Source of the DNA: an uncultured Eubacteriales bacterium
GTDB lineage: Bacteria; Bacillota; Clostridia; Christensenellales; Aristaeellaceae
Reading direction: 5' to 3'
Assembly: GCA_902765735.1 (NCBI GenBank)
Contig: CACXBB010000008.1
Coordinates: 1 to 64,000 of the forward strand
Length of the DNA: 64,000 nucleotides
Of this stretch, positions 3,531 through 63,887 are shown one piece after another. Both the position numbers and the translations under genes were made by a program. Each line of letters starts with the position of its first letter. The stretch's first letter is position 1. The notes beneath the pieces are model-generated. The model worked only from the letters and a program-made list of their open reading frames with translations. It searched no databases and was not told the DNA's origin.

Positions 3531-3762
3531 CGTAGGGACGCCATTCATGGCGTCCGGGGAACGACCTCTTTCGTCTTAATGCCTATCGGCATTAATCCAC
3601 CTTCCCCTGAAGGGGAAGGCTTGGGCGGGCGGCGCGTCGCCGCCCCTACAACGGGGTTCCGGGCGATGAGGGCATCGCCCCTACGACGGCCCCGGCCATT
3701 CCTGTTCCCTGTTCCCTCCCCGGCTATTCCTATTGCCTATTCCCTATTCCCTATTGCCTTTG
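3531..3762. repeat. Composite intergenic repeat island 1
   Basis: Holds four palindromes in a row: a GTAGGGACGCCA/TGGCGTCC hairpin (3532-3555), CCTTCCCCTGAAGGGGAAGG (3600-3619), a GGGCGGCG/CGCCGCCC hairpin ending CCCTAC (3623-3648) and a GGGCGATG/CATCGCCC hairpin (3661-3685). The right end is an array of degenerate 7-bp units (TTCCCTG, ATTCCCT; about 3697-3760). No left-hand array is seen. No coding potential was recognised. Confidence 0.85.
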
Positions 3763-3785
3763 CCCGGTTAATTTTTATGGCACGG

Positions 3786-3814
3786 TTGACAAACGCCGGG
3801 CGGTGTTCTACAAT
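3786..3814 (+). promoter_or_regulatory. Promoter of the M-box/mgtE transcript
   Basis: TTGACA (3786-3791), a 17-base spacer and TACAAT (3809-3814) lie just upstream of the riboswitch. A near-consensus sigma-A promoter. Confidence 0.85.
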
Positions 3815-3829
3815 AGAATTGTAATATCC

Positions 3830-3990
3830 GGTAAGTAAGGCTACCGCAGGGATATGGATTGCTGCCGCGAAGTGGTGGAGACACCATCAGATGGTTTGAA
3901 CAGGCGATATCGAAGCACAAGGTACCGTCTAACGCAATTTCACCGCCCTGCGATGCTGAAGCTCGAACGGTGCAGGTGATATCCATATGC
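3830..3990 (+). ncRNA. M-box (ykoK) magnesium riboswitch
   Basis: The segment carries the conserved M-box blocks: GGTAAGTAAGGCTACC near the 5' end, GGATATGGATTGCTGCCG, the AAGTGGTGGAGACACC arm, GATGGTTTGAACAGGCGATATC and the late CGATGCTGAAGCTCGAACGG. The closing P1 pairing uses GATATGGAT (about 3851) with ATATCCAT (about 3979). M-box RNAs bind Mg2+ and switch off magnesium transporters. Here it precedes an intrinsic terminator and mgtE, the classic arrangement. Confidence 0.93.
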
Positions 3991-3993
3991 TTT

Positions 3994-4024
3994 CATCCGC
4001 ATCCGTTTGGGGTGCGGATTTTGA
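3994..4024 (+). terminator. Riboswitch-controlled terminator ahead of mgtE
   Basis: ATCCGCATCC pairs with GGTGCGGAT (one bulge) and is followed by TTTTGATTT. It sits just after the M-box P1 strand, so Mg2+ binding would favour termination before mgtE. Confidence 0.8.
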
Positions 4025-4216
4025 TTTCAACGATGAGTGAGGTGAACAAAATGGACGCTGGCAGTAGATGCGACACAGGCGCGGGACCCTTGCGGTGCGT
4101 TACGGCGTTCATTTTGCGCCGGTAGCCCGCACCCATCTCCCGCAGTGTCACACTCCTGTCTTGACTGCGGTCGGGCGGTGCCCGTCCCAATTATCAACGA
4201 TTTGGAGGAGATACCC

Positions 4217-5575
4217 GTGAAGGAGAGAACCGAAATTCTCGAAGAGACCTTCCGCAAGCTGGTGGAAGAGAAGAAATTTTCATCGCTGCGCGATCTGATG
4301 GCCACCATGTACCCCGCGGACGTGGCCTCCATACTCTCCGACCTGCCCAAGGACATGCTTCCGGCGCTGTTCCGGCTTCTGCCCAAGGACCTGGCGGCGG
4401 ACACCTTTGTGGAGATGGACGGCGACATCAAGGAGGCACTGATCAAGAGCTTTTCCGACAACGAGCTGAAAAACGTGCTGGACGAGCTGTACATGGACGA
4501 CACGGTGGACCTGATCGAGGAGATGCCCGCGGGCCTCGTGCGCAGGCTGATGCAGCAGGCGGACGCCGACACCCGAAAGCGCATCAACGAGATCCTGAAG
4601 TACCCGGACGACTCCGCCGGCTCGGTCATGACCACGGAGTTCGTGTCACTGAGGCCCGAGATGACCGCCTCCGACGCCATCGCGCTCATCCGGGCCACGG
4701 GCGTGGACAAGGAGACCATCAACACCTGCTACGTCACCGACGACAAGTACCACCTGCTGGGCACGGTGACCATCCGACAATTGATACTGGCCAAACCCGA
4801 CGAGAAGTGCGAGAGCCTGATGTCCCCCAACGTCATCAGCGTCACCACCAAGGACGACCAGGAGAGCGCCGTGCAGACCATGTCGAAGTACGACTTCTCC
4901 TCGCTGCCCGTCGTGGACGGCGAGGGCCGCCTGGTGGGCATCATCACCGTCGACGACGCCATGGACATCATGGAGGAGGAGGCCAGCGAGGACATCGCGA
5001 AGATGGCCGCCATCACGCCGTCGGACAAGCCCTACCTCAAGACCAGCGTGCTCGAGATCTGGAAAAACCGCATCCCGTGGCTTCTGCTGCTGATGGTCTC
5101 GGCCACGTTCACCGGCATCGTCATCACCCGGTTCGAGGACGCCCTGGCCCTGTTCCCGATGCTCATCGCCTACATCCCCATGATGATGGACACCGGCGGC
5201 AACTCCGGCTCCCAGGCGTCGGTCACCGTCATCCGCGCGCTGTCGCTGGGCGAGGTGGAGTTCGCCGACCTGTTCCGGGTCGTATGGAAGGAGTTCCGGG
5301 TGGCCATCATGTGCGGCGTCACCCTGACGGCGGCCAACTTCGTGAAGCTGTTGCTGTTCGACAAGCTCACCGCGCCGGTGGCCCTGACCGTGTGCATCAC
5401 CATGCTGTGCACCATCATCATCGCCAAGATGGTGGGCTGCACCCTGCCGATGCTCGCCAAGCGGGCCGGCCTGGACCCCGCGGTGATGGCTTCGCCGTTC
5501 ATCACCACCATCGTGGACGTGCTGTCCCTGCTGATCTACTTCTCATTCGCCTCGATGATACTGCACATCGGATGA
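4217..5575 (+). CDS. mgtE: Magnesium transporter MgtE
   Basis: Mg2+-gated magnesium channel of the cell membrane, 452 residues, the usual family length. Domains in order: the superhelical N domain (roughly 1-125, with repeated LPxDxxAxLL-like helices), a CBS pair (about 130-250, including GSVMTTEFVSL and DFSSLPVVDGEGRLVGIITVDDAMD) and a five-helix membrane domain from about 280 with the pore segment YIPMMMDTGGNSGSQAS. The start is the GTG at 4217, with GGAGGAG 7 bases before it. The longer frame from 4145 would begin in the leader. It is controlled by the upstream M-box. Confidence 0.97.
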   Translation: MKERTEILEETFRKLVEEKKFSSLRDLMATMYPADVASILSDLPKDMLPALFRLLPKDLAADTFVEMDGDIKEALIKSFSDNELKNVLDELYMDDTVDLIEEMPAGLVRRLMQQADADTRKRINEILKYPDDSAGSVMTTEFVSLRPEMTASDAIALIRATGVDKETINTCYVTDDKYHLLGTVTIRQLILAKPDEKCESLMSPNVISVTTKDDQESAVQTMSKYDFSSLPVVDGEGRLVGIITVDDAMDIMEEEASEDIAKMAAITPSDKPYLKTSVLEIWKNRIPWLLLLMVSATFTGIVITRFEDALALFPMLIAYIPMMMDTGGNSGSQASVTVIRALSLGEVEFADLFRVVWKEFRVAIMCGVTLTAANFVKLLLFDKLTAPVALTVCITMLCTIIIAKMVGCTLPMLAKRAGLDPAVMASPFITTIVDVLSLLIYFSFASMILHIG

Positions 5576-5581
5576 TATTCC

Positions 5582-5611
5582 GCGCCCCCGCCCACGACCG
5601 GACGGGGGCGC
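5582..5611 (+). terminator. Hairpin after mgtE
   Basis: GCGCCCCCG and CGGGGGCGC form a perfect 9-bp stem immediately downstream of mgtE. The following bases are only moderately T-rich, so termination may be partial. Confidence 0.5.
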
Positions 5612-5687
5612 ATGCTATTATTCCCACTTTCCTTTTTCCCGGATATGCGCTATAATACCCGTGATAACACCCATAAAGGAGATCATC

Positions 5688-6515
5688 ATGGCGAACAGGT
5701 ATATCAACCGGTCGCAGCGCCGCCGGATACAGCAGCGCCGGAACCTACTGGCCATCGGCGCGATGGCGCTGATCGCGGTCATACTGATCGTCGCGGTCGT
5801 ACTGATACTGCGTCCCCACGGGGATGCCCCGGCGCCCGCCGCCGCGCCCACGGACACCCCTGCGCCCGCGCCCACGGCGCAGGCCACAGCCCTCCCCACG
5901 GCCACCGCCACCGCCGAACCCACGCCGGAGGTCACTTCGACGCCGACGCCCGCCCCGACCTTCGAGCCCGGCGAGATCCCCAACGCGCTGTCCTTCTACC
6001 GGCCCAAGGGCAAGAGCTACTCCCCCCGCGTCAAGCTGGGCGACGAGTACGCCGCGAAGTGGAAGAAGGGCGAGGACATCGGCAGCTTCGAGGTCATCGC
6101 CTCGGAGCAGGACGAGCTGCCCGGGGACTTCTTCGGGGACATCTTCGGCTCGGTGTGGAAGTCCTTCCCCAAGTCCGATCAGTGCAAGATCGGCTACACC
6201 CTGCGCTACACTCTAAAGGACGGCGGCGAGGTCAAGTATACCATGCTGTCCCCGAAGCACATCCAGCACACCGAGTACATCGAGTGCTGGCTGTACGACG
6301 ACTACCACCGCAAGCCCCACGAGAACTACTCCCACCTCAAGAGCGTGAAGAAGGACACCCTGATCACCTCCATCAAGCTCACCTGCGGCAGCAAGATCGC
6401 CGACGTGGACGAGATCTGGCTGACCGCCTTCGTCTGCGCCTCCCTCGACGACTTCGACGCCGAGCGCAACTACACCGGCGACACCTCGTGCACGCTGCAT
6501 ATTGTGAGGAAATAG
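5688..6515 (+). CDS. Membrane-anchored extracellular protein of unknown function
   Basis: A 275-residue protein not assigned to a family. Residues 1-20 are basic (MANRYINRSQRRRIQQRR), 21-42 form one transmembrane helix, and about 45-95 are a Pro/Ala/Thr-rich linker typical of exported anchored proteins. The rest is a globular domain rich in aromatic and charged residues, with the end TSCTLHIVRK. AAAGGAG precedes the ATG at 5688. The upstream nine codons in the same frame lack a ribosome site. A TATAAT at 5651-5656 may be its -10 but lacks a good -35. Orientation is inferred as N-in, domain outside. Confidence 0.8.
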   Translation: MANRYINRSQRRRIQQRRNLLAIGAMALIAVILIVAVVLILRPHGDAPAPAAAPTDTPAPAPTAQATALPTATATAEPTPEVTSTPTPAPTFEPGEIPNALSFYRPKGKSYSPRVKLGDEYAAKWKKGEDIGSFEVIASEQDELPGDFFGDIFGSVWKSFPKSDQCKIGYTLRYTLKDGGEVKYTMLSPKHIQHTEYIECWLYDDYHRKPHENYSHLKSVKKDTLITSIKLTCGSKIADVDEIWLTAFVCASLDDFDAERNYTGDTSCTLHIVRK

Positions 6516-6526
6516 GGACTTTTCCC

Positions 6527-6555
6527 TTGCATTTTCCCCCGGGGCGGTTTATAAT
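6527..6555 (+). promoter_or_regulatory. Promoter of mntP
   Basis: TTGCAT (6527-6532), 17 bases and TATAAT (6550-6555). The transcript leader contains a CCGCGGC/GCCGCGG hairpin (about 6576-6596) but is too short for a yybP-ykoY manganese riboswitch. Confidence 0.8.
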
Positions 6556-6617
6556 CTTTGGTATGTCATACCCTCCGCGGCGCATCCCGCCGCGGGGAAG
6601 GATCGGGGGAAAGACGC

Positions 6618-7211
6618 ATGGGCACGCTGGCGGCATTCATCATCAACAGCGTCCTGCTGGGCGTGGGCCTGGCGATGGACGCCTTCTCCGTATCGATGGC
6701 CAACGGGCTGAACGCCCCGTGGATGTCCCCGGGCCAGCGGCTGGCCATACCGCTGACGTTCGCGTTCTTCCAGTTTCTGATGCCCATGATCGGGTGGTTC
6801 TGCGTGCACGCCATCGCGGAGGCGTTCACGGCGTTCCAGCGGGCGATCCCGTGGATCGCGCTGGCGCTGCTGGCCTTCATCGGCGGCAAGATGCTGATCG
6901 AGGGCATCCGCGGCAGCGGCGACGCCTCGGAGGAGGACGTGACCCTGAGCCCCGGCGTGCTGATGATGCAGGGCGTGGCCACCTCCATCGACGCGCTGTC
7001 GGTGGGGTTCACCATCGCGGAGTACCACGTGGCCCAGGCCTTCTCCGCCAGCCTCATCATCGCGGGGGTGACCTTCGTCATCTGCGTAGCCGGCCTGCAC
7101 ATCGGCCAGCGCTTCGGCACGCGGCTCGCCGGCAGGGCCTCCATACTGGGCGGCGTGATACTGATCGCCATCGGCATCGAGATCTTCGTCAAGGGCATCT
7201 TCGGCGCGTGA
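6618..7211 (+). CDS. mntP: Manganese efflux pump MntP
   Basis: A 197-residue polytopic membrane protein of the MntP (YebN) family, which exports Mn2+. It has two homologous halves of three helices, each with the acidic signature: GVGLAMDAFSVSMANGL in the first half and QGVATSIDALSVGFT in the second. The Asp residues in these are needed for transport in characterised relatives. The start is the ATG at 6618 with GGGGGAAA upstream. The frame extends to 6558 but the extra residues are not family-like. It has its own promoter. Confidence 0.93.
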   Translation: MGTLAAFIINSVLLGVGLAMDAFSVSMANGLNAPWMSPGQRLAIPLTFAFFQFLMPMIGWFCVHAIAEAFTAFQRAIPWIALALLAFIGGKMLIEGIRGSGDASEEDVTLSPGVLMMQGVATSIDALSVGFTIAEYHVAQAFSASLIIAGVTFVICVAGLHIGQRFGTRLAGRASILGGVILIAIGIEIFVKGIFGA

Positions 7212-7285
7212 ACCCGTCCGCTTCACACGCCCGGAACTTTTTTCCATGCCGCGCGTCCAATAAAAAAAGAAAGGCGGGATTTCCC

Positions 7286-8134
7286 ATGAGGCAACTGTCA
7301 TTGATACTGGCCCTGCTGCTGATCCTGTGCGCGGGAGCGTCGGCAGAGGCGGCGCTGCCGGGCGGCGTGACGCTCGAAGAAGGTAAGGCGGCCTCCGTCG
7401 ATCTTGACGGCGACGGCGCGGCGGAGGAGGTCCGCTGGGTCATGACCCCCGGCGACGACGGCGTTATGGTGGTGGAGGTCACCGGCGCGGACGGCGCGAC
7501 GGTCCGCTTTGAGACCGACATCGCCTGGGGCGGCAACGGCTGGGTGGCGGACCTGGACGGCGACGGGCGGATGGAGATATTCGCCTGGGGCGACGTGATG
7601 TCCGACGACTACTACACCTGGTGCCTGCACTGGATGGGCGACCGGCTGGCCCCGGCGCTGTTTCGGGACATCGAGCGCGGCGAGAACGGCAACGGCTACT
7701 ACAAGTCCGGCTACGGCTACCTGACCGCCGCGGACCCCAAAGAGGGCACGGTGACGCTGTGCGGCAGCCAGGACGTGCTGGGCACCTACTTCGTCGGGCG
7801 CACGCTGAAGCTCTCCGAGGACGGGCTGTTCGAGATCGCCGACGACGGCTGGTGGACCCGCGAGGCGCCCGCCGACGGCGAGGCATGGGACGAGTACACC
7901 GGGCTGACCCTCAAGGCCGATGTGGACTGTGAACTCGACGGCAGTCCCGCCACGCTCAAGCCCGGCGACCGGATCTTCATCACCGGCTCGGACAAGCGGG
8001 AAAAGGCCGCCTTCGTCACCCCCGACGGCCACTCTGGCACGCTGGAGATCGACTGGAACTACGATGACTGGGGCTGGAAGGTCAACGACATCCCTGAGAG
8101 CGAACTGTTCGAGTTCGTACCGTATGCGGATTGA
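7286..8134 (+). CDS. Secreted protein with FG-GAP/EF-hand-like loops
   Basis: A 282-residue exported protein. Residues 1-22 are a Sec signal peptide (basic start, LILALLLILCAGASAEA, cleavable). Two DLDGDG loops (about residues 37-42 and 91-96) resemble the calcium-binding loops of FG-GAP/VCBS repeats. The C-terminal 70 residues, with LKPGDRIFITGSDKREKAAF, look like a small beta-barrel of the SH3 type. There is no lipobox and no cell-wall sorting motif, so it is probably released or loosely attached. The function is unknown. A strong terminator follows. Confidence 0.85.
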   Translation: MRQLSLILALLLILCAGASAEAALPGGVTLEEGKAASVDLDGDGAAEEVRWVMTPGDDGVMVVEVTGADGATVRFETDIAWGGNGWVADLDGDGRMEIFAWGDVMSDDYYTWCLHWMGDRLAPALFRDIERGENGNGYYKSGYGYLTAADPKEGTVTLCGSQDVLGTYFVGRTLKLSEDGLFEIADDGWWTREAPADGEAWDEYTGLTLKADVDCELDGSPATLKPGDRIFITGSDKREKAAFVTPDGHSGTLEIDWNYDDWGWKVNDIPESELFEFVPYAD

Positions 8135-8140
8135 ATGACG

Positions 8141-8180
8141 AAAACCGCCACACCCTTTGCCGGGGTGTGGCGGTTTTTTA
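8141..8180 (+). terminator. Rho-independent terminator
   Basis: AACCGCCACACC and GGTGTGGCGGTT form a long stem followed by six T residues, directly after the secreted-protein gene. Its preceding A-run could also let it work weakly on the other strand. Confidence 0.92.
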
Positions 8181-8325
8181 GAGGGAGTAGGGAGTAGGGG
8201 CTACGACCTCTTCCGTCAGCCCTTCGGGCTGCCACCTTCCCCTGAAGGGGAAGGCATCGGTTACGCTTCCAAAAGCCTTCCCCTTCAGGGGAAGGTGGCG
8301 CGAAGCGCCGGAAGAGGTCGTCCCC
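8181..8325. repeat. Composite intergenic repeat island 2
   Basis: Starts with GGGAGTA heptamers (8183-8199), then a large inverted repeat whose outer arms are CGACCTCTTCCG and CGGAAGAGGTCG and whose inner arms are CACCTTCCCC..GGGGAAGG and CCTTCCCC..GGGGAAGGTGG. It lies between two convergent genes. The right heptamer array is missing. Confidence 0.85.
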
Positions 8326-8334
8326 TGTGTTTGC

Positions 8335-10602: not shown

Positions 10603-10636
10603 TTGCTTCACTCCTCGATGATTTCACTTCGCCATA

Positions 10637-12013: not shown

Positions 12014-12080
12014 GGATATTGTATCCCTTCCGCTTCAAAAAGCCCATTATCCACCATATTATCATCACAGCTTACATGTA

Positions 12081-12109
12081 ATTATATCACAAAACCGCCC
12101 CCGTGTCAC
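12081..12109 (-). promoter_or_regulatory. Promoter of the GGDEF gene
   Basis: Minus strand GTGACA (12104-12109), 17 bases and TATAAT (12081-12086). Confidence 0.7.
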
Positions 12110-14628: not shown

Positions 14629-14861
14629 GACGACCTCTTCCGTCTGGCCTGCGGCCAGCCACCTTCCCCTGAAGGGGAAGGCATAGGTTGCGCCTCCAAA
14701 AGCCTTCCCCTTCAGGGGGCGCGAACGCCCGGAAAACAGCACAGTGCGCTGTTTTCAGTGAGCGCGGGCCAGCAGGCCCCCGGAACGGTGGCACGCGAAG
14801 CGTGACGGAAGAGGTCGTAACCCCTACTCCCTACTCCCTACTCCCTACTGCCTACTCCCTG
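14629..14861. repeat. Composite intergenic repeat island 3
   Basis: Outer inverted arms GACGACCTCTTCCGTC (left) and GACGGAAGAGGTCGT (right), inner CCTTCCCCTGAAGGGGAAGG and a second CCTTCCCC block, then a right-end array of CTACTCC heptamers (14824-14859). Lies between cdsA and the downstream secreted-protein gene. No gene is seen in it. Confidence 0.85.
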
Positions 14862-23363: not shown

Positions 23364-23634
23364 AGGAAGTAGGCAGTAGGGAGTAGCCGCCCGCGGACGG
23401 AGTGCGCGTGCGCAGGGGCGCTTCCGCGTTTGCGCCTGCCCTCATCGCCCGGAACCACGTCGTAGGGGCGGCGATGCGCCGCCCGCCGGGTCAGAGCCGA
23501 ACGATATGTTGAGGGCGGGCGCCGCGTCGGTGCCCCTACGATAGGCATGTACAAGCCTTCCCCTTCAGGGGAAGGTGGCACGCGAAGCGTGACGAAAGAG
23601 GTCGTAGCCCCTACTCCCTACTCCCTACTCCCTG
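23364..23634. repeat. Composite intergenic repeat island 5
   Basis: Left array of GTAGGGA/GCAGTAG heptamers (23366-23386) and right array of CTACTCC heptamers (23611-23634) are inverted copies. Between them are the GGGGCGGCG/CGCCGCCC hairpin, CCTTCCCC..GGGGAAGG and a single GACGAAAGAGGTCG arm. It lies between the convergent amylase and rubrerythrin genes. Confidence 0.85.
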
Positions 23635-24198: not shown

Positions 24199-24316
24199 GA
24201 ATTAGGAATTGGGAATGAGGAATTAGGAATTATAGAATGCCGGAAACCTGACGCAGGATATGCCGCGCGGCAGCGGGTAACTCAACTCCTAACTCCTAAT
24301 TCCTAATTCCTCATTT
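24199..24316. repeat. Composite intergenic repeat island 6 (AATTCCT type)
   Basis: Left array of AGGAATT-type heptamers (24201-24231) and right array of CCTAATT heptamers (24283-24315), inverted to each other. The core is short, with a CCGCGCGGCAGCGGG segment. It lies upstream of rubrerythrin and abuts the galT stop codon. Confidence 0.85.
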
Positions 24317-25853: not shown

Positions 25854-25914
25854 GGGCAAACACCTCTTACTTATGAAATAACTATGGTACACCGGGCAGT
25901 CCTTTGGTTGGATG

Positions 25915-26093
25915 AGAGTGGAGAGTGCAGAGTGCAGAGTGCAGAGTGCAGTTTTGGTAGAAATCCTTCGGATTTCTTTGATAATAAGGCTGCGACATAA
26001 CGAACAATCATTGTAATTATCCATTGATTCAGAACAAATCCCGAAGGGATTTGCACCGCAACTGTACTCTGAACTCTGTACTCTGAACTCTTT
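25915..26093. repeat. Composite intergenic repeat island 7 (GCAGAGT type)
   Basis: Left array of four or more GCAGAGT heptamers (25917-25950) and right array of CTCTGAA/CTCTGTA heptamers (26064-26091), inverted to each other. Each is flanked inside by a palindrome: AAATCC-TTC-GGATTT on the left and AAATCCC-GAA-GGGATTT on the right. It lies between the divergent galT and galK. Confidence 0.85.
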
Positions 26094-26236: not shown

Positions 26237-27484
26237 ATGGATGTCAGAAAGCTGCTTGAGAAGAACGCCGAACGCATGCGCGCGCTGTATGCGGGCGCGG
26301 ACCAGACCGAGCGCTATGAGGCGCTGGCGGAGGCCTTCCGGGCCCAGTTTGGCCGGGAGCCGGAGCTGTTCGTCTCCGCGCCGGGGCGCACCGAGGTGGT
26401 GGGCAACCACACCGACCACCAGAACGGTCGGGTGCTGGCCGCGTCGGTGAACCTGGACACCGTGGCCGCCGTCGCGCCCAGGAGCGACACGATCGTGAAG
26501 CTGTACTCGGCGGGCTACGACAAACCCTTCGAGGTGGACATCGCCGACGACGCCGTGCGCGAGGACGAAAAGGAGACCACCTTCGCGCTCATCCGCGGCG
26601 TGGCGTCGAGGCTTCGCCAGCTCGGCTACAAGGTGGGCGGCTTTGACGCCAGCGCCACCTCCACCGTGTTCAAGGGCAGCGGGCTGTCCTCGTCGGCGGC
26701 GTTCGAGGTCATGCTGGTGGCGGCCTTCGACGCGCTGTACAACGGCTGGGTCGTGGACCCCAAGGAGAACGCCCGCATCTCCCAGTACGCCGAGAACGTG
26801 TACTTCGGCAAGCCCAGCGGACTGCTGGACCAGTCGGCCAGCGCCGTGGGCGGGCTGGTGACCATGGACTTCGCCGTCTCCCCCGCCGGGGTGGAATCCA
26901 TCGCCTACGACTTCGGCAAAAAGGGCTACGCGGTGTGCGTGGTGTCCGCCGGCGGCGATCACGGCAACCTGACCGCCGACTACGCCGCCATCCCCGCCGA
27001 GATGAAGGCCGTGGCGAAGGCCCTGGGGCGCGAGCTGCTGTGCGACGTGACCCCCGAGGCGCTGATGGCCGCGCTGCCGAAGCTCAAGAACCATGTGCCC
27101 GACCGGGCGATACTGCGCGCCTTCCACTACGTGGATGAGACCCGGCGCGTGGTGGCGGCGGTCGACGCCCTGCGCAAGGACGACCTGAAGGGCTTTTTCG
27201 ACACCGTGATCGGCTCCGGCGAGAGCAGCTGGAAGCTCCTGCAAAACCTCTATGTGCCCGGCAGCGACAATCAGGAGATGCCCCTGGCGCTGGAGATGAG
27301 CCGCCGGATGCTTGCCGGCCGCGGCGCGTGGCGCATCCACGGCGGCGGCTTCGCCGGCACCATACTGGCCTTCGTGCCCTTCGACCTGCTGGATACCTAC
27401 CGCGCCGCCATGGACGGCGTGTTCGGCCAGAACGCCACCACCGTGCTGGCGATCCGGCCGGAGGGAGTCGTGAGGATCAATTGA
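26237..27484 (+). CDS. galK: Galactokinase (clostridial variant)
   Basis: GHMP-family kinase phosphorylating galactose at C1. The 415-residue product has the ATP loop GSGLSSSAAFEV and the C-terminal HGGGFAGTILAFV. The galactokinase signature near residue 50 reads GRTEVVGNHTDHQNG, with E and N replacing the usual N and E of GRxNxIGEHxDY, a variant I know from clostridial homologues. The sugar-binding pocket may therefore differ slightly. GGGGAGG upstream of the ATG. The stop codon falls inside the first heptamer of the downstream repeat island. Confidence 0.93.
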   Translation: MDVRKLLEKNAERMRALYAGADQTERYEALAEAFRAQFGREPELFVSAPGRTEVVGNHTDHQNGRVLAASVNLDTVAAVAPRSDTIVKLYSAGYDKPFEVDIADDAVREDEKETTFALIRGVASRLRQLGYKVGGFDASATSTVFKGSGLSSSAAFEVMLVAAFDALYNGWVVDPKENARISQYAENVYFGKPSGLLDQSASAVGGLVTMDFAVSPAGVESIAYDFGKKGYAVCVVSAGGDHGNLTADYAAIPAEMKAVAKALGRELLCDVTPEALMAALPKLKNHVPDRAILRAFHYVDETRRVVAAVDALRKDDLKGFFDTVIGSGESSWKLLQNLYVPGSDNQEMPLALEMSRRMLAGRGAWRIHGGGFAGTILAFVPFDLLDTYRAAMDGVFGQNATTVLAIRPEGVVRIN

Positions 27485-27631
27485 GAATTGAAAATTGAGA
27501 ATTGAAAATGGCCGATCAAATCCTGACGGATTTGTGTGACCATACTGTTTCGCACAGTCCGCGTCTATGATTCAATCAAAAGAAATCCGTCAGGATTTCC
27601 ACAACAATTCTCCATTCTCAATTCTCAATTA
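27482..27631. repeat. Composite intergenic repeat island 8 (GAATTGA type)
   Basis: Left array GAATTGA/AAATTGA (27482-27508) and right array of TCAATTC-type heptamers (27606-27630), inverted. Inside are the two palindromic signals AAATCCTGACGGATTT and AAATCCGTCAGGATTT. It lies between galK and tsaE on the same strand. Confidence 0.85.
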
Positions 27632-42414: not shown

Positions 42415-42500
42415 CGGACGCCATAAATGGCGTCCCTACGGTGATGTTGAAATCAACGCGGCAGCAGCTATTCCTGTTCCCTGTTACCTGTTCCCTGCGC
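42415..42500. repeat. Composite intergenic repeat island 10
   Basis: A GGACGCCA/TGGCGTCCCTAC hairpin (42416-42439), a CAACGCGGCAGC segment, and a right array of CTGTTCC heptamers (42471-42498). The left array is absent. Located between the kinase and the radical enzyme genes. Confidence 0.8.
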
Positions 42501-44906: not shown

Positions 44907-45130
44907 ATTAGGAATTGGGAATGGGGAATGGGGAATTGGGAATTAGGAGTTAGGAATGAGGAGTTAGGAATTAGGAATGGAGGCGGCAGTTGTCGCCTTT
45001 TGCGGAAAACGACCGAACACCCATGTAGGGACGCCATTTATGGCGTCCGGGCCTGTTTGCGGACGCCATGAATGGCGTCCCTACGAGGGGTTTGATATCA
45101 CTCTAATTCCTCATTCCTCATTCCTCATTA
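44907..45130. repeat. Composite intergenic repeat island 11 (GGAATT type)
   Basis: Left array of GGAATTA/GGAATGG heptamers (44907-44979), the longest in the window, and right array of TTCCTCA heptamers (45103-45127), inverted. The core holds two GGACGCCAT hairpins in opposite orientation (45024-45049 and 45060-45084), together forming one larger inverted repeat. It interrupts the sugar operon between the reductase and the radical enzyme genes. Confidence 0.88.
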
Positions 45131-47512: not shown

Positions 47513-47811
47513 ATGAGGGAGAGTACAGAGTGCAGAGTAGGGGCGCTTCCGCGCTTGCGCCTGCCCTCATCGCCCGCATGGAACAATACCCCGTAGGGAC
47601 GCCATTCATGGCGTCCGAAATCACCGCACTCCCGTAGGGGCGGCGATGCGCCGCCCCTACGGAAATCCAACGCGGCAGCCTTGCCTCCCCTTCCAGGGGA
47701 GGTGCCCCAAGGCGACAACCCCAAAGGGGTTGTCGGTCTGCCCCTTCGGGTCAAAGATTTTGACGCCGCACCGCAGGGGCGGAGAGGTTCTCCCCTACTC
47801 CCTACTCCCCA
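47513..47811. repeat. Composite intergenic repeat island 12
   Basis: Left array GAGTACA/GAGTGCA (47519-47540) and right array CCCTACT (47792-47808) use different heptamers. The core includes the GGGACGCCA hairpin, GTAGGGGCGGCGATGCGCC and a CCTCCCCTTCCAGGGGAGG palindrome with a CAACCCCAAAGGGGTTG hairpin. It lies between the divergent dehydrogenase and AraC genes, so it may place both promoters apart. Confidence 0.85.
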
Positions 47812-47826: not shown

Positions 47827-48699
47827 ATGGAAACATATGAATTCTCAAGTGTATTCGAGCTCGGCACGCTGCAGGTCGCGCCGGTGCACGTGCGCATCGA
47901 GCAGCTGCGGCCGATCATCGCGGCGCACACCCATTCCAACACCAGCTACGAGATCCACTACACCCGGCAGGGGCGGGGCACGGTGACCATCGACGGGGTG
48001 AGCCGCCCGGTGGAGGCGGACACGCTCTACATCACCGGCCCCGGGGTGGTGCACGCCCAGACCTCGCAAAACGCCGAGCCCATCGTGGAGTACTGCCTGT
48101 ACCTGAACTGCCGCCGGGGGGCGTCGGCCCGCAGCGACCCGTTCTCGCTGTTCGCGGAGACCGCCTTCTGGATGGGCCGGGACGAGGGCCGCCTGCTGCC
48201 GCTGCTGGAGCAATTGATCCGGGAGAACCGGCAGATGCTGCCCGGGGCGGCGGAGATGTCCGAGACGATCCTCAAGCAGATCATCATACTGCTGACCCGC
48301 ATGTACCGCCAGGACGCCGCGCGGATGCCGGCGCCCTCCCCCGCCCCGCTGCTGACCCGGGCGGGCTTTCTGCCGATCATCGAGGACGCCTTCTTCTACC
48401 GCTACCGGACGCTGACGCTGACGGACCTCTCCCGGCTTCTGAACCTGAGCGCCCGGCAGACCCAGCGCCTGTTGCAGCAGAACTTCGGCAGGACCTTCTC
48501 GCAGAAGCTCACCGAGGCGCGGATGGCAGCGGCGTCCCAGTACCTGCTCAGCACGGCGCTGTCCGTCACCGAGATCAGCGAGCGCACCGGCTTCTCCTCC
48601 ATCGAGCACTTCTCCGCCGCCTTCCGCCGCTTCACCGGCCTGTCGCCGAGGGAGTATCGGAGGAGAGGGAGGGAACAGGGAACAGGGAACAGGGAGTAG
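47827..48699 (+). CDS. AraC-family transcriptional regulator
   Basis: A 290-residue regulator with an N-terminal cupin sensing domain (residues about 10-100: AAHTHSNTSYEIHYTRQGRG, then VEADTLYITGPGVVHAQ) and a C-terminal double helix-turn-helix (about 190-280: LSRLLNLSARQTQRLLQQ and VTEISERTGFSSIEHFSAAF). It probably senses a sugar and controls the adjacent dehydrogenase and sugar operon. The last residues, GREQGTGNRE, are encoded by the GGGAACA heptamers of the following repeat island, so the tail length is set by the repeat. Confidence 0.92.
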   Translation: METYEFSSVFELGTLQVAPVHVRIEQLRPIIAAHTHSNTSYEIHYTRQGRGTVTIDGVSRPVEADTLYITGPGVVHAQTSQNAEPIVEYCLYLNCRRGASARSDPFSLFAETAFWMGRDEGRLLPLLEQLIRENRQMLPGAAEMSETILKQIIILLTRMYRQDAARMPAPSPAPLLTRAGFLPIIEDAFFYRYRTLTLTDLSRLLNLSARQTQRLLQQNFGRTFSQKLTEARMAAASQYLLSTALSVTEISERTGFSSIEHFSAAFRRFTGLSPREYRRRGREQGTGNRE

Positions 48700-48945
48700 G
48701 GAGTAGGGTAGAACCTCTCCGCCCCTGCGGTGCGGCGTCAAAATCTTTGATTTTGCCGTCGCAGTCTGCCCCGAAGGGGCAGACCGACAACCCCTTTGGG
48801 GTTGTCGCCTTGGGGCACCTCCCCTGGAAGGGGAGGCAAGGCTGCCGCGTTGGATTTCCGTGGGGAAGGTGGATTGCGCGAAGCGCAAGACGGAAGAGGT
48901 CGTAACCCCTACTCCCTACTCCCTACTCCCTACTCCCTACTCCCT
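48668..48945. repeat. Composite intergenic repeat island 13
   Basis: Left array GGGAACA changing to GGGAGTA (48671-48708) and right array CTACTCC (48908-48944), inverted. Inner hairpins are ACAACCCC/GGGGTTGT and CCTCCCCTGGAAGGGGAGG, with a GACGGAAGAGGTCGT arm. Both neighbouring coding sequences run into the arrays: the AraC gene on the left and the ABC exporter gene on the right. Confidence 0.88.
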
Positions 48946-54843: not shown

Positions 54844-55090
54844 AATGGGAAATGGGAAATTGGGGTGACGACCTCTTCCGTCATTTGCTTTGCAAATGCC
54901 ACCTTCCCCTGAAGGGGAAGGCTTTTGGAAACGTAACCCTATGCCTTCCCCTTTAGGGGAAGGTGGCAGCCCGAAGGGCTGACGAAAGAGGTCGTCACCC
55001 ATTCCCTTCGGGCGATGAGGACATCGCCCCTACGAAACCACGCTCCTTCGCCCTCCATTTCCCATTTCCCATTTCCCATTCCCCATTTCT
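54844..55090. repeat. Composite intergenic repeat island 14 (GGGAAAT type)
   Basis: Left array GGGAAAT (54846-54863) and right array CCCATTT (55056-55088), inverted. The core has CGACCTCTTCCGTC and GACGAAAGAGGTCG arms around paired CCTTCCCC hairpins, and a GGGCGATGAGGACATCGCC hairpin ending CCCCTACG. It lies between divergent genes. Confidence 0.87.
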
Positions 55091-55910: not shown

Positions 55911-55912
55911 CC

Positions 55913-57268: not shown

Positions 57269-57270
57269 GC

Positions 57271-58653: not shown

Positions 58654-58679
58654 GATGAGATGGTCTCCTTGCTTTTTAT

Positions 58680-58834
58680 CAATTAGGAATTGGGAATTGG
58701 GGTTACGACCTCTTCCGGCGCTTCGCGCCACCTTCCCCTGAAGGGGAAGGCTTAGGTCACCGCGTCCATCAGTTCATGAAACGCGGCAGCGGCATTCTAT
58801 AATTCCCAATTCCCCATTCCCAATTCCCCATTAT
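58680..58834. repeat. Composite intergenic repeat island 15 (GGAATTG type)
   Basis: Left array GGAATTG (58683-58702) and right array CCCAATT/CCCCATT (58799-58832), inverted. The core contains GACCTCTTCCG, CCTTCCCCTGAAGGGGAAGG and an AAACGCGGCAGCGG segment. Located between the tldD start and the LytTR gene end. Confidence 0.85.
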
Positions 58835-59655
58835 TATCCAAACATCTTCTGCAGCGCCTCGAACCGCTCATGGGTGATCAGGGCGTCGTCCCTGAGGCCC
58901 TTGAGCTTGACCACGTAGGTCCAGCGGCCGTAGGGCTGTATGGATTCGATCAGGTTGAGGTTGACGATATAGCTCTTATGGGTGCGGAAGAACCGGTCGT
59001 CAGGCAGGCGCTCGTCCAGCTCGGCCATGCCGTCGGACATGGTATAGCGGGCGCCGTCCTTCATCAGCACGATGGTGGCGCGGTTTTCCCGCATGACCAT
59101 GGCGATGTCCGCCAGGTCCAGGAAGCTCACGCCCTCCCGGTGCTTGAGCATGATGCGCCCCGGGACGCTGACCGCCGCCGGGGCAGGCGAAACCGGTGCG
59201 ACCGGTGCGACCGGTGCGACCGGGGCGACCGGTGCGACCGGGGCGACCGGTGCGACCGGCTCGGTCACCGGCTCGACGACGCCCCCGCCCAGCCGGTCCC
59301 GTATGCGCGCGAGGGTCTCCAGCGCGCGCTCCACCCGGAAGGGCTTCACCAGATAGTCGAAGGCGTAGACCTCGAAGGCGCTCTTCATGTACTCCTCGTG
59401 GGCGGTGGCGAACACGATCACCGTCCGCGGGTCACGGTCCTGTATGGCCCGGGCGCACTCGATACCGGTCTTGCCGGGCATCTCCACGTCCATCAGCACC
59501 ACCTGGGGGTGGCCTTCGTCGTACAGCGCGATCAATTGGTCTCCGTCCTCCGCCTCCCCCGCGAGCCGGTAGCCCTCCGCGCGCTCCACCAGCTTGCGCA
59601 TCACCAGGCGCATGCCGGGCTCGTCGTCGGCGATGAGAATATTTAAATCATTCAT
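58834..59655 (-). CDS. LytTR-family response regulator with VAP-repeat linker
   Basis: A 273-residue response regulator. The receiver domain (1-120) has ADDEPG, phospho-acceptor Asp56 in VVLMDVEMPG and Lys104 in YLVKPF. The C-terminal LytTR DNA-binding domain (about 165-270) has FFRTHKSYIVNLNLIESIQ. Between them, residues about 128-160 form a linker of seven Val-Ala-Pro repeats, encoded by seven 9-bp DNA repeats (59192-59254). No histidine kinase is adjacent. The start overlaps the upstream gene's stop (ATGA). Last gene of the NfeD-FloA operon. Confidence 0.92.
   Translation of the reverse strand: MNDLNILIADDEPGMRLVMRKLVERAEGYRLAGEAEDGDQLIALYDEGHPQVVLMDVEMPGKTGIECARAIQDRDPRTVIVFATAHEEYMKSAFEVYAFDYLVKPFRVERALETLARIRDRLGGGVVEPVTEPVAPVAPVAPVAPVAPVAPVAPVSPAPAAVSVPGRIMLKHREGVSFLDLADIAMVMRENRATIVLMKDGARYTMSDGMAELDERLPDDRFFRTHKSYIVNLNLIESIQPYGRWTYVVKLKGLRDDALITHERFEALQKMFG
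59192..59254. repeat. 9-bp tandem repeat in the LytTR linker
   Basis: Seven consecutive copies of ACCGGTGCG/ACCGGGGCG inside the coding sequence, keeping the reading frame and encoding Val-Ala-Pro units. Confidence 0.95.
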
Positions 59656-60215
59656 GACGCCCTCCGCCTCAGTGCCTTGGGCCGGTCCAGGATCTCCGCG
59701 ACCACCACGGCGCGGCGCAGGCGGTGGATATTCATCTCGGAAAGCTCCAGCGCGGCCTGGGCGGCGAGGCTCTCGTCGGCCTCCCGGCGCATGGCGGCCT
59801 TCATGTGCCGGTCATGCTCCGCGCGGCTCTCGCCCTCCTCGTGGGTGTGCGCCATGGAGCCGCCCACGCAGCCCTCGTCATCCGCGTGGGTGGTCCCCTG
59901 AGGCTTCGCAGCCACGGTCGCCGCCGCGGTCCGGGCGGGCGGCTTCGCGGCACCGACCTCCTTCGGCACGGCCTGCGCCTTCGCGGCCGGCTTCGCTTCC
60001 TTCACCGCGTCGCCCGCGGACTCCGTGGCCATAACGCCCAGCGCCTTCAGGAAGTCCTCGCCGCTTTTGGCGTTCTCCAGCTTACGGTTAAGCGCCTCCC
60101 GGCTGCGGACCGCCTGCTGAGAGGTCTTCCCGGCGCTCTGGGCCTTTTTCTTCTTGCTGTTGCTGCTGCTGACCAGTATGAACACGATGATCAGTATATA
60201 CACTAGGACTCCCAT
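59652..60215 (-). CDS. Single-pass membrane protein of the flotillin operon
   Basis: A 187-residue protein not assigned to a family. One N-terminal transmembrane helix (MGVLVYILIIVFILV) is followed by a Lys-rich stretch, a helical segment, an Ala/Pro/Lys-rich linker (about 85-125) and a C-terminal helical part ending KALRRRAS. AAGGAGG before the ATG at 60215. Between floA and the LytTR gene, coupled to the latter. It could tether a partner near flotillin assemblies, but this is inference. Confidence 0.78.
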   Translation of the reverse strand: MGVLVYILIIVFILVSSSNSKKKKAQSAGKTSQQAVRSREALNRKLENAKSGEDFLKALGVMATESAGDAVKEAKPAAKAQAVPKEVGAAKPPARTAAATVAAKPQGTTHADDEGCVGGSMAHTHEEGESRAEHDRHMKAAMRREADESLAAQAALELSEMNIHRLRRAVVVAEILDRPKALRRRAS

Positions 60216-60245
60216 AGGGCTGCCCTCCTTGTGCGCCGACGGGGC

Positions 60246-60266
60246 GAGGGGCGTCGAGCGCCCCTC
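60246..60266 (-). terminator. Hairpin after floA
   Basis: GAGGGGCG and CGCCCCTC pair around a 5-base loop just after the floA stop. No T-run, so more likely an mRNA-stabilising or attenuating hairpin than a full terminator. Confidence 0.4.
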
Positions 60267-60278
60267 ACCCGTCAACCG

Positions 60279-61280
60279 TTACTTCTTTTCCTTCTCCTGC
60301 GCGGCGGGCGCGCCCTCCCCGGCGATCGCCTCGCGCATGCGGGTGTCGGACTTGATGTTCTGCATGTTGTAGTAATCCATCACGCCCAGCTTGCCCTCGC
60401 GCAGCGCGGCGGCCATGGCTTTCGGCACCTCGGCCTCGGCCTCGACGACCTTGGCGCGCATCTCCTGCACGCTGGCCTTCATCTCCTGCTCGTGGGCGAC
60501 GGCCATGGCGCGGCGCTCCTCGGCCTTGGCCTGGGCGATGCGGCGATCGGCCTCGGCCTGGTCCATCTGGAGCTGGGCGCCCACGTTGCGGCCCACGTCC
60601 ACGTCGGCGATGTCGATGGAGAGGATCTCAAACGCGGTGCCGGCGTCCAGGCCCTTGTTGAGCACGGTGCGGCTGATGAGGTCGGGGTTCTCCAGCACGT
60701 CCTTGTGGCTCTCGGAGGAGCCGACGGTGGTGACGATACCCTCGCCGACGCGGGCGATGATGGTCTCCTCGCCGGCGCCGCCCACCAGGCGGGAGATGTT
60801 GGCCCGCACGGTGACCCGGGCCTTGGCCCGCAGCTCGATGCCGTCCTTGGCGATGGCAGCGATGACGGGGGTCTCGATGACCTTCGGGTTGACGGACATC
60901 TTCACGGCCTCCAGCACGTTGCGGCCGGCCAGGTCGATGGCCTTGGACTGGTCAAAGCCCAGCTCGATCTGGGCCGACTGCGCCGCGATCAGCGCGTCCA
61001 CCACGCGGTCCACGTTGCCGCCCGCCATGTACAGGGTCTCCAGCTCGTTCATGGTGACGTTGATGCCGGCCTTGCGGGCCTTGATCATCGGCGGCACGAT
61101 GCGGCGCGGGCTGACCCGGCGGAACTTCATGCCCACCAGATTGAAGATGTTGATGTGTACGCCGCTCATCAGCGCCGAGAACCACAGCCCCAGCGGGAAC
61201 AGCGAGAACAGCGCGATGATGACGACGACGATGATGATCGGCAGCGCAAAGGCCGCAATGCTCGGACCGTAACGATACAT
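60279..61280 (-). CDS. floA: Flotillin-like protein FloA
   Basis: Membrane-associated scaffold of bacterial lipid microdomains, 333 residues, the same length as Bacillus FloA (YqfA). An N-terminal hydrophobic segment (about 10-45), an SPFH domain with [22 protein letters not shown], then [21 protein letters not shown], and a C-terminal coiled coil rich in EA repeats ([20 protein letters not shown]). Paired with the NfeD gene upstream, as in Bacillus (yqeZ-yqfA). Confidence 0.95.
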
Positions 61281-61303
61281 GATATTGACCTCCTTGATCT
61301 GTT

Positions 61304-61804
61304 CTATACGATTTCTTCAACAACGATTCGGTTTCCCGCAACCTTCTGCACCCTGATCGGCCTGCCCTGGGCGATGAACTCGCCGTCGGAAACCACGTTG
61401 AGCTTCACGCCGTCGAATTCGCCGATGCCCGCGGGGCGCAGGGCCGTGTGGGTGACGCCCTTTTTGCCGATGAAGTAGTTCAGGTCGTTGTTCTCGGCGG
61501 CGTCGGGGGAGATGGCCACGTCGTTGAGCGCCAGCTTCGACTTCTCAAGCCGTCCCTTGGACGCCGTGATCAGGCACACCGTCAGCGCGATGCACAGTAT
61601 CGCCGCCAGGATCACGAACAGCAACAGCCCCTGCTCCAGCGGCGGGCTGAGCAGCACAAACCCCAGCACCAGCGACCCGATGCCCAGCATCCCCGGCACG
61701 CCGAACCCCGGGATGTACATCTCGAACACCAGCAGGCCCACGCCCACCAGCAGCAGTATCATCTCCGGCAGGTTCGATGCCAACAGGCTCCATAAACCGC
61801 CCAT
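61304..61804 (-). CDS. NfeD-family membrane protein
   Basis: A 166-residue short NfeD protein. Four membrane helices (about 10-95, with [21 protein letters not shown]) are followed by a soluble OB-fold domain (about 110-166, with [20 protein letters not shown]). The N-terminal ClpP-like protease domain of long NfeD proteins is absent. Partner of FloA. GAGGTG before the ATG. A TATACT at about 61839 upstream may be its -10 box, but no good -35 is seen. Confidence 0.92.
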
Positions 61805-62003
61805 GCCAGCTTCACCTCGCTTTGTCTTTCGATGGTCTTAGTATACCATCTTTCCCGCCAAAAGAAAAGGGCGCGCGCACGAATGATACACTTTTCGCCC
61901 CGAAATGTCGCGGGGGTCCCGTCAAAAATGTGAAATATCTGTGCCGCCGCATGCCGTTGTCCCGTATTTCATATGAAATCACTGTCCGGAGAGGAGGGAG
62001 TAC

Positions 62004-62231
62004 ATGGGGCGATTGTGGAAGCTCACGGTGGTCATGACCGCGCTGACCGCCATACTTTTCTCGTCGGCGGCGGGCGTCACGCTGTGGCGGCTGTGGCGGC
62101 GTCCGCCCAGGCTGACGCTGGAGCAGACGCCGGAGGGCCTGAAATGGGAGGGCACTCAGTATTCCGCGCTGCTCAAGGTGCGCGACGCGCGGATGGACTG
62201 GCTGATGATCTGGCGAAAAAAGGATGATTAG
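62004..62231 (+). CDS. Small single-pass membrane protein
   Basis: A 75-residue protein of unknown function: a helix at residues 5-30 (LTVVMTALTAILFSSAAGV), then a basic region and a small soluble part ending MDWLMIWRKKDD. GGAGGG precedes the ATG. A perfect palindrome ATTTCATATGAAAT (61966-61979) lies 25 bases upstream and may be an operator. Confidence 0.72.
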   Translation: MGRLWKLTVVMTALTAILFSSAAGVTLWRLWRRPPRLTLEQTPEGLKWEGTQYSALLKVRDARMDWLMIWRKKDD

Positions 62232-62245
62232 TCCTGTAAAACCGC

Positions 62246-62274
62246 TTGAACGCGCCGGAAAAACGTGGTAGAAT
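62246..62274 (+). promoter_or_regulatory. Promoter of nagA
   Basis: TTGAAC (62246-62251), 17 bases and TAGAAT (62269-62274). Confidence 0.75.
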
Positions 62275-62300
62275 ATAGAAGATACAAAGGAGGCCTCGTC

Positions 62301-63446
62301 ATGAAGAGCATCGTCAACGGACGGATACTGATCCCTGACGGCGTTATCGACCAGAAGGTACTCACTTTTGACCAGCGCATCGCGGAGATCGCGTCGGAGC
62401 CCCCGGAGGAGGCGGAGATCATCGACGCCAAGGGCTGCTATGTGGCCCCGGGGCTGATCGACGTCCACTGTCACGGCTTTATGGGGTGGGACACCTCCCG
62501 CGCCAGCGTCTCCGACCTGAAATCCATGTGCGCCCACCTGGTCCGCAGCGGCGTGACCAGCTGGCTGCCCACCACGCTGACCCTGCCCTGGCCCGAGCTG
62601 GAAAAGTGCTTCGCGGCCATCCGCGAGGTCATGCGGGAGAGCGCCCTGCCGGAATGGTGCGGCGGCGCGCAGGTGCTGGGCTGCCACGCGGAGGGGCCGT
62701 TCATCAGCCCCAGGCGCAAGGGCGCCCAGTGCGAGGCGTACATACAGCGCCCGGAGGCTCGCAGGATCAAGCCCTGGGCGAGCGTCATCCGGCTGATCAC
62801 CGTCGCCCCCGAGGTGGACGGCGCGCTGGACTTCATCCGCGCGGCCAAGCGGCTGGGCATCGCGGTCTCCATGGGCCACAGCGACGCCACCGCCGAGCAG
62901 GCCTTCGCCGCCATCGAGGCCGGGGTCACCCATGTGACCCACACCTTCAACGCCATGGCCCCGCTGAACCACCACAGCCCCGGCCTGGTGGGCGCGGCGC
63001 TCAACGACGACCGGGTGTACTGCGAGCTCATCGCCGACGGCCTCCACGTCAGTCCCCTGCTGCTTCCCCTGCTGGCGCGGCTCAAGCTGCACCGGCTGGT
63101 GCTGATCACCGATTCCATACAGTCCGCGGGCCTGCCCGACGGCGTCTACGATCAGCTGGGCGTGCAGATCCGCATGGAGGGCGAGTGCTGCCGCCTGATG
63201 GACGGCACCATCGCCGGCAGCACCCTGACGATGGACAAGGCCGTGCGCAACTTCGTGCGCTACTCCGGCATCCCGGTGTGGCGCGCCGTCAACATGGCCT
63301 CCCTCTACCCCGCCCGCGCCATCGGCATGGACAGCCGAAAGGGCGCGCTGCAACGAGGCAAGGACGCCGATATCGTCATCGCCGACCGGCACTTCAACGT
63401 CCGCGCCACCTTCGTGGGCGGCGAGTGCGTTTACAGAGCACAGTAG
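62301..63446 (+). CDS. nagA: N-acetylglucosamine-6-phosphate deacetylase
   Basis: Amidohydrolase that removes the acetyl group from GlcNAc-6-phosphate, from wall recycling or chitin/mucin sugars. The 381-residue product has IDVHCHG, GCHAEGPFI with the metal Glu, SMGHSDAT and VTHTFNAMAPLNHH with metal His residues, and LITDSIQSAG with the catalytic Asp. AAAGGAGG precedes the ATG at 62301. nagB is not adjacent. The active site looks complete. Confidence 0.95.
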   Translation: MKSIVNGRILIPDGVIDQKVLTFDQRIAEIASEPPEEAEIIDAKGCYVAPGLIDVHCHGFMGWDTSRASVSDLKSMCAHLVRSGVTSWLPTTLTLPWPELEKCFAAIREVMRESALPEWCGGAQVLGCHAEGPFISPRRKGAQCEAYIQRPEARRIKPWASVIRLITVAPEVDGALDFIRAAKRLGIAVSMGHSDATAEQAFAAIEAGVTHVTHTFNAMAPLNHHSPGLVGAALNDDRVYCELIADGLHVSPLLLPLLARLKLHRLVLITDSIQSAGLPDGVYDQLGVQIRMEGECCRLMDGTIAGSTLTMDKAVRNFVRYSGIPVWRAVNMASLYPARAIGMDSRKGALQRGKDADIVIADRHFNVRATFVGGECVYRAQ

Positions 63447-63490
63447 CGGGAGAAATGTTGTTTTGTTGATTGTTGACCTGGATTCGGCTT

Positions 63491-63887
63491 GAGAGTGCAG
63501 AGTGCAGTTTTGGTTCAAATCCCTTCGAGATTTGTCCGATTGAAAGAGATTTCGCGTTGAAGGGATCAATCGTGCCACCGTAGGGGCGGCGATGCGCCGC
63601 CCGCCGGGTGGATGCGCAGCACCTCATCCGGCGCTACGCGCCACCTTCCCCTCAAGGGGAAGGCTTTTGGGCGGGCGCCGCGTCGGCGCCCCTACGAAGG
63701 CTCCCCTGCGTAGGGGGAGCTGTCAGCGCAGCTGACTGAGGGGGCGCGGGCTCCCCTGCGTAGGGGGAGCTGTCAGCGCAGCTGACTGAGGGGGCGCAAA
63801 TCCGGCGGACGCCATGAATGGCGTCCCTACAACGGGACATGTACCCTATCTGCACTCTCCACTCTCCACTCTTCATTCTCCACTCTG
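63491..63887. repeat. Composite intergenic repeat island 16
   Basis: Left array GAGTGCA (63491-63507) and right array of CACTCTC/CACTCTT heptamers (63853-63886), inverted. In the core are an AAATCCC..GATTT palindrome, GTAGGGGCGGCGATGCGCC, CCTTCCCCTCAAGGGGAAGG, GGGCGCCGCGTCGGCGCCC and a GGACGCCATGAATGGCGTCC hairpin. A direct repeat of two 50-bp units (63699-63797) is also inside. No gene is seen in the 460 bases after nagA. Confidence 0.87.
63699..63797. repeat. Two-copy 50-bp direct repeat
   Basis: Two essentially identical tandem units each beginning GGCTCCCCTGCGTAGGGGGA and containing CTGTCAGCGCAGCTGACTG, itself an imperfect palindrome. Confidence 0.93.

Follow-up and report, generated by a model that had tools for sequence, protein, structure and literature searches.

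Intergenic islands bounded by inverted arrays of 7-bp repeats raise the question of why the two ends of an island carry the same heptamer when different islands carry different ones. We addressed this question in a stretch of 64,000 nucleotides from an uncultured Eubacteriales bacterium of the Aristaeellaceae (assembly GCA_902765735.1, contig CACXBB010000008.1, positions 1 to 64,000; here, the window), in which a first-pass annotation had described about 15 such islands and proposed that the two arrays of an island evolve together in place. Whole islands, arrays included, occur at many loci whose flanks are unrelated, and sites occupied in one species can be empty in another. A matched island is thus probably a copy, or the descendant of a copy, of a short non-autonomous mobile element whose ends are heptamer arrays, and movement of the whole element explains the matched ends better than copying from end to end.

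The window belongs to a genome of 2.92 Mb in 73 contigs (G000), of which a further 395 kb were sampled, and was compared with relatives in a single genus of uncultured Clostridia from gut and rumen (12 in the first comparison set), analyzed as samples and not as whole genomes. A lag-7 scan of the window found 23 arrays, and scans at periods 8, 10, 11, and 13 yielded none; dinucleotide shuffles of the window (n = 20) gave 0 to 2 period-7 arrays each (mean, 0.4). The additional 395 kb held 45 period-7 arrays and, again, none at the other four periods, and the fixed unit of seven that the first-pass annotation had reported also holds in the samples of the relatives. Arrays were dense in the samples of G000, G001, G003, G004, G009, and G010 and rare in those of G002 and G007; none were found in the samples of G005 (133 kb), G006 (83 kb), and G008 (80 kb).

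Each unit consists of five nearly invariant bases and two free ones (AGAGT-NN, AGGGA-NN, GGAAT-NN, and AATTG-NN). In the three large classes, pentamer positions were 0.86 to 1.00 conserved and spacers 0.47 to 0.65, a contrast that arises partly by construction, as the pentamers were picked by eye and at least half of an array's units had to match. Independently of this classifier, 14 aligned copies (mean identity, 83%) had 32 of 40 pentamer columns and no spacer column invariant. Two regularities unlisted in the first-pass annotation are stronger than those it listed: fixed polarity and nearly fixed unit number. Where neighboring arrays lie <500 bp apart (n = 90, genus samples), a purine array (R) stands to the left of a pyrimidine array (Y) in 77 cases and to its right in 1, with 3 RR pairs, 7 YY pairs, and 2 of mixed composition; in each arm, the 5′-to-3′ direction of the purine strand points to the core. 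In the 186 arms that have three or more exact units, unit presence, counted outward from the core, was 1.00, 1.00, 0.99, 0.89, 0.28, and 0.14. Four or five pentamers were present in 165 of 221 classified arms (29 of 250 arms had no class, and a partial fifth unit can count), the modal array length was 30 to 33 bp, and no decayed in-phase units were detected beyond the called arrays (1.344 versus 1.339 matches of 5).

Left and right units matched at at least 6 of 7 positions in 24 of 27 islands in G000 (8 of them in the window), 27 of 30 in G004, and 9 of 10 in G001, against expectations of 5.1, 7.6, and 1.3, respectively. The observed mean was never reached in 2000 shuffles for G000 and G004 and was exceeded by the best shuffle for G001 (z = 8.3, 7.8, and 4.1 for G000, G004, and G001). 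The small sets were matched in 4 of 4 cases in G003 and 3 of 4 in G010, neither significant, and G009 contributed 2 pairs. The pentamer classifier placed both arms in the same class in 91 of 102 islands, a set that includes fetched family copies and leaves out 23 of 125 islands in which an arm had no class. The earlier observation that heptamers differ between islands and match within them is thus real, and it survives the comparison with shuffled pairings across the window, the rest of the sampled genome, and the relatives.

Two families carry the argument for movement. In the sister genome G004, searched with one of its own islands, 12 loci (L216 to L227, of 30 loci returned) contain one island of ~125 bp in which arrays and core align; nine copies are complete, and L225, L226, and L227 have one arm interrupted by another repeat. 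Unit order is largely conserved among these copies, the second left unit being of the ACT type in 8 of 10 full left arrays, and their flanks are unrelated beyond a short, partly shared outer module. For a second family, detected in G000 with one island of that genome as the query, 19 of 27 fetched loci were aligned, and all 19 span arm, core, and arm (4 of them lack the outermost unit on the left); beyond the arrays the flanks are unrelated, save for an outer hairpin common to L263 and L264. The inverted arms of ~31 bp and the 12 and 19 copies recall the 15- to 30-bp inverted ends and the high copy number of miniature inverted-repeat transposable elements (MITEs). One apparent new jump, between the islands at L017 and L018, was rejected: their flanks are shared on both sides, and we treat the pair as a segmental copy. 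A separate repeat, starting AGAGTGTGTTTCTAAA, is inserted into AGGGATT-family arrays in G004 (e.g., at L147:14518-14740).

Sister species were compared in 45 flank-matched comparisons, made in both directions. The target had at least two array calls in 31 of them (that for the window island at 54844 in G004 being a short lone array and a C-run) and no array in 14, which correspond to 10 distinct sites: one keeps a short coreless inverted form, one has a different gap, and eight are plain absences. Single gaps can also differ in what fills them. The gap between galK and tsaE carries AATTGAG arms in the window and in G004, AATTAGG arms in G003, and AGTGTGG arms at L058, and is short and array-free in many of 24 named relatives. 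A second gap is empty in G000, with AGGGAAC in G003 and AGGGATT in G004, and a third has AATTGAG, AGGGAAC, and AGGGATT, respectively. Such gaps have either been re-used by different lineages or had their heptamers replaced.

The arrays and islands of the window, some with hairpins of the repetitive extragenic palindromic (REP) type, are as follows.

3690-3764 (array finder, 3701-3759): pyrimidine arrays CCTGTTC and CCTATTG/CCTATTC without a purine partner, to the right of REP-type hairpins at 3531-3690.
8182-8199: lone purine array, AGGGAGT, ahead of nested hairpins.
14822-14860: lone pyrimidine array, CCCTACT.
23364-23633: island with the AGGGAGT class in both arms and REP-type hairpins within; missing in sister species G003.
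24199-24315: island with the GGAAT class (AATTAGG) in both arms and CGCGGCAGCGGG in the core; common to G003 and G004.
25914-26091: island of the AGAGTNN type-1 family, with a TTTTGG-AAATCC hairpin at either end; present in G004, absent from G003.
27479-27630: island in the gap between galK and tsaE, with AATTGAG in the left and right arms alike; at this site, G003 has AATTAGG on both sides.
42473-42497: lone pyrimidine array, CCTGTTC, adjoining a REP hairpin.
44907-45129: island of the GGAAT class, with a long left arm and an inverted REP pair, GTAGGGACGCC, within.
47520-47809: arrays of differing heptamers, AGAGTAC on the left and CCCTACT on the right.
48670-48945: island with AGGGAAC/AGGGAGT on the left and CCCTACT on the right; G003 has only a short inverted form without the core.
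54844-55087: island with the AAATGGG class in both arms; the G004 site carries a short pyrimidine array alone.
58681-58832: island with AATTGGG/AATTAGG in both arms; in G003, this gap holds an AGTGTGG type-1 element.
63492-63886: island with AGAGTGC/AGAGTGG in both arms and several nested hairpins; present in G004 too, with different nested inserts.

The single architecture attributed to about 15 islands therefore applies to nine, which have a purine array on the left and a matching complementary pyrimidine array on the right (mean unit match, 5.88 to 6.87 of 7, lowest at 25914, the sole island below 6); the other five have, according to the array finder, arrays of one kind or, at 47520, differing heptamers. 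Islands lie between convergent genes (23364 and 48670), divergent genes (25914), and co-directional genes (27479), so that they are not simply terminators, as the first-pass annotation had also concluded.

Inward of the arrays there is often one of two types of subterminal motif, TTTTGGTNNAAATCC with a hairpin or GCNGCTGCCGCG. Each is found with several heptamers, and many junctions match neither; the type-1 hairpin motif was not found in the array-free samples of G005, G006, and G008. On this anatomy, the proposed element would be ~110 to 175 bp long, with inverted arrays of four heptamers (~31 bp) as its ends and, inward of these, a conserved subterminal motif and then a variable middle. A pentamer (AGAGT, AGGGA, GGAAT, AATTG, and others) followed by a two-base spacer is what might be expected of a recognition site read four times per end. 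The two ends would match as both travel together, and lineages with different pentamers would exist side by side and occupy the same intergenic gaps repeatedly. Once inserted, an element could gain or lose whole units in its arrays and receive REPs in its interior, giving rise to the composite islands. Insertion would leave the target unduplicated and so probably differ from standard DDE transposition; our guess is a route that is single-stranded or coupled to replication.

Several observations weigh against this reading. Target-site duplications appear to be absent, an adjacent direct repeat of 4 to 10 bp being found in 0 of 117 islands, whose array ends can be fuzzy. Neither a mobilizing gene nor an autonomous copy was found in the samples searched, where the two long R…Y spans (L156 and L157), considered as an autonomous parent, hold ordinary genes. 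Many arrays are lone, chiefly AGGGAGT and AGGGAAC, and one core type can be paired with several heptamers. Spacers do not track core similarity in 21 AGAGT copies, in which spacer sharing between left arms was 0.22 at 80 to 90% core identity and 0.24 at 70 to 80%. Finally, some families may have their true ends further out, as a few copies share a conserved outer module beyond the arrays. A module ACGGGAAGTTGNYGG begins 25 to 26 bp before the left array in L220, L233, and L017, which have three different heptamers.

The alternative advanced in the first-pass annotation, in which hairpin or cruciform pairing or gene conversion copies one end into the other, is in our view unlikely. Spacer sharing between the left and right arms of an island exceeded that in shuffles in five of seven tests (P = 0.001 to 0.033), while the other two failed (P = 0.88 and 1.0). 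Between two sister species, the orthologous islands L027:16609 and L155:4821 differ in spacer types in both arms, and at the L144, L147, and galK-tsaE sites, sister species differ in heptamer, each being matched in both arms. When the arm helix of 14 copies was compared with shuffles, paired cells (91.5% versus 88.3%, a level that 0 of 500 shuffles reached), cells altered on both sides (13 versus 9.2; 36 of 500), and the covariation score (0.105 versus 0.070; 5 of 500) were all raised. However, pairs changed on both sides numbered 5, versus 5.9 in shuffles, and in the consensus fold, the arms pair with a shift of one unit. The two arms do not mirror each other in unit order (spacer identity at the same position was 17 of 70, or 0.24, versus 0.35 elsewhere), and in the orthologue of island 25914, the left arm has changed in two units while the right arm is identical. 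The evidence that compensatory change maintains arm pairing is weak and mixed, and we did not adopt that explanation. Because two-arm islands occur whole at many loci, the matching is explained by copies of the entire element; conversion is not required, and co-evolution of the ends in place is neither needed nor supported as the main process. Some coordinated change of both arms, as at L027:16609 and in the five spacer-sharing tests, nevertheless remains unexplained.

There is little probability that plain slippage, with 7-bp simple repeats growing at intergenic sites and REPs inserted afterwards, accounts for the islands. Lone arrays exist, some arrays are very long, and at the site of 47520, a short purine array is all that G003 and G004 carry and G005 has none, a series that resembles early stages of growth; slippage, however, predicts neither the excess of RY over YR pairs (77 versus 1) nor the sharp four-unit mode, and neither an invariant pentamer with a free spacer nor copies at loci with unrelated flanks. 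Very little probability attaches to arms made anew by a repeat-adding enzyme that adds heptamers to both 3′ ends of a break, with the core joining them. Such an enzyme would account for the polarity of the purine strand, for AGAGT-family spacers that do not track core similarity, and for a nearly fixed unit number and pentamer, yet copies of the AGGGATT family have largely inherited their unit order, and no RVT_1 gene was detected in G000 or G001. Least probable of all are selected RNA or DNA devices (terminators, mRNA stabilizers, or G-quadruplexes) kept for host benefit: some islands do start at a stop codon (27479 and 48670) and the consensus of the type-1 family folds strongly (−56.3 kcal/mol), but presence varies between sister species, three relatives are array-free in samples of 80 to 133 kb, window islands have no Rfam match at gathering thresholds, and AGAGTNN arms lack G3 tracts, with GG only in AGAGTGG units (63 of 278).

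G3 tracts are present in AGGGA and GGGAA units and absent from AGAGTNN and most GGAATNN and AATTGNN units, which rules out the G-quadruplex as the reason for four units in AGAGT arms. Terminators, riboswitches, and other known RNAs were likewise set aside, as the Rfam search of the window returned a single element, an M-box (magnesium) riboswitch at 3820-3981. It lies upstream of an MgtE transporter gene (4145-5575) and to the right of the heptamer/REP island at 3531-3764.

The nested hairpins are a separate matter from the mobile element proposed here. Those of the GTAGGGACGCC type have a GTAG tag, a palindrome, and inverted pairs and are ordinary REPs, whereas the heptamer arms fall outside the REP/REPIN definition: their ends are arrays without GTAG-tagged hairpins, and no Y1 transposase gene was detected in three array-rich genomes, G001, G003 (76% complete), and G004. 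The sole Y1_Tnp (REP-associated tyrosine transposase, RAYT) gene detected in G000 (L204:10277-10780; contig C8, 94277-94780) has GTAGGGACGCC hairpins on both sides and no flanking heptamer arrays; a REP-like motif also occurs inside its coding sequence. RVT_1 reverse transcriptase genes were found in 4 of 14 genus genomes (G004, G007, G008, and G009), including one that is array-free in its sample (G008), and were undetected in G000, G001, G003, G010, and G011. Given these distributions, both the RAYT and the reverse transcriptase were rejected, and neither is a good candidate for moving heptamer-ended elements. The islands show REPs nested within what looks like another mobile element.

Further features were seen along the way. 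The AraC-type gene at 47827-48699 is flanked by the islands at 47520-47809 and 48670-48945, which share, as judged by eye, an inverted core stretch and AGTAGGG arrays, so that this gene lies between long inverted repeats. Within the island at 63492-63886, a 50-bp hairpin unit is exactly duplicated in tandem (63699-63797). A nine-base tandem repeat, ACCGGTGCG (7.6 copies), occupies 59192-59259 within overlapping open frames. In the relatives, AGGTTTT heptamer arrays resembling telomere repeats, with complementary arrays nearby, occur at L076 (one named relative) and at L188 and L189 (G009). In G009, an ABC exporter gene is interrupted within its ATP-binding part by a heptamer array (L008:3005-3056), after which homology resumes, and the same place is interrupted in G007 (L009), with a hairpin cluster in addition.

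Beyond the genus, four AGRGW-NN units were found in 20 of 299 Bacillota genomes, the window's own included, a count to be read with the facts that a backward-read control matches several genomes too and that some matches are simple repeats. In a distant family member (G181), an R array followed by a Y array was present in 6 of 7 fetched stretches; among 13 other stretches from 10 genomes, this order was seen in 1 (L293, with different heptamers), and the rest had lone or mixed-composition arrays. More tentatively, and with less confidence than we place in the islands of this genus, we entertain the possibility that the heptamer arrays of Bacillota, Xanthomonas, and cyanobacteria all form the ends of a single unrecognized class of tiny mobile elements, whose mobilizer would read a pentamer four times at seven-base spacing at each end. 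If true, this would account at once for the unit of seven, the count of four, and the convergent pairs. An element with heptamer-array ends may explain why seven-letter repeats are common in some bacteria, and the old puzzle of the bacterial heptamer excess becomes testable, the object of the search being a factor that recognizes four units of AGAGTNN, AGGGANN, or GGAATNN. Because it includes both array-rich relatives and relatives that are array-free in samples, the genus provides a natural comparison set. No description of four-heptamer ends of a mobile element was recognized in the literature listings searched, which cover subscription journals thinly.

The first-pass annotation named the cyanobacterial short tandemly repeated repetitive (STRR) heptamers as the closest parallel. 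STRR arrays reportedly have small hairpin elements, the small dispersed repeats (SDRs), embedded in them, a likeness to the islands described here; they are said to be direct arrays, in a description that does not include matched inverted arms of fixed unit number. SDRs form families of 21 to 27 nt with a shared RNA fold. The parallel is thus a fair one, and a nearer case exists.

The islands resemble MITEs in being short, non-coding, multicopy, and polymorphic between relatives and in having inverted ends, and differ from them in that the ends are tandem heptamers and that no target-site duplication and, in the samples searched, no parent insertion sequence was found. Nested hairpins of the GTAGGGACGCC kind correspond to the REPs and REPINs associated with RAYTs in the portion of Di Nocera et al. 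(2013, PMC3733652) drawn on here, from which the heptamer arms differ, having no GTAG-tagged hairpin ends. The TAACTGA repeats of Beggiatoaceae are likewise intergenic, strain-specific heptamer arrays; in the sections of PMC4679880 cited here they comprise 169 direct sets and one indirect repeat and lie mostly just upstream of start codons.

The closest published case, nearer than STRR, is that of the Xanthomonas GGGAATC repeats, as far as the cited sections of Rehm et al. (2015, PMC4692102) describe them. They share with our arrays a 7-nt unit with conserved and variable positions, a four-unit mode, and convergent inverted pairs (70 in Xcc and 75 in Xac), and the GGGAATC and GGGGA(C/T)T heptamers of Xanthomonas and Nostoc are mostly intergenic and often near stop codons. 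Those sections offer polymerase slippage and G-quadruplexes as ideas on the heptamer excess, tie the four units to G-quadruplexes, and consider the repeats to be generally not associated with mobile elements. In contrast, several pentamer classes in the present genus, some of them without G3 tracts, keep four units, and arm-core-arm copies occur at many loci. A four-unit rule and convergent pairing that persist without G3 tracts, together with whole copies at many loci, point to mobile elements. Heptamers, the four-unit mode, and convergent pairs were already known from Xanthomonas, and it is their reading as the ends of a mobile element that is new here.

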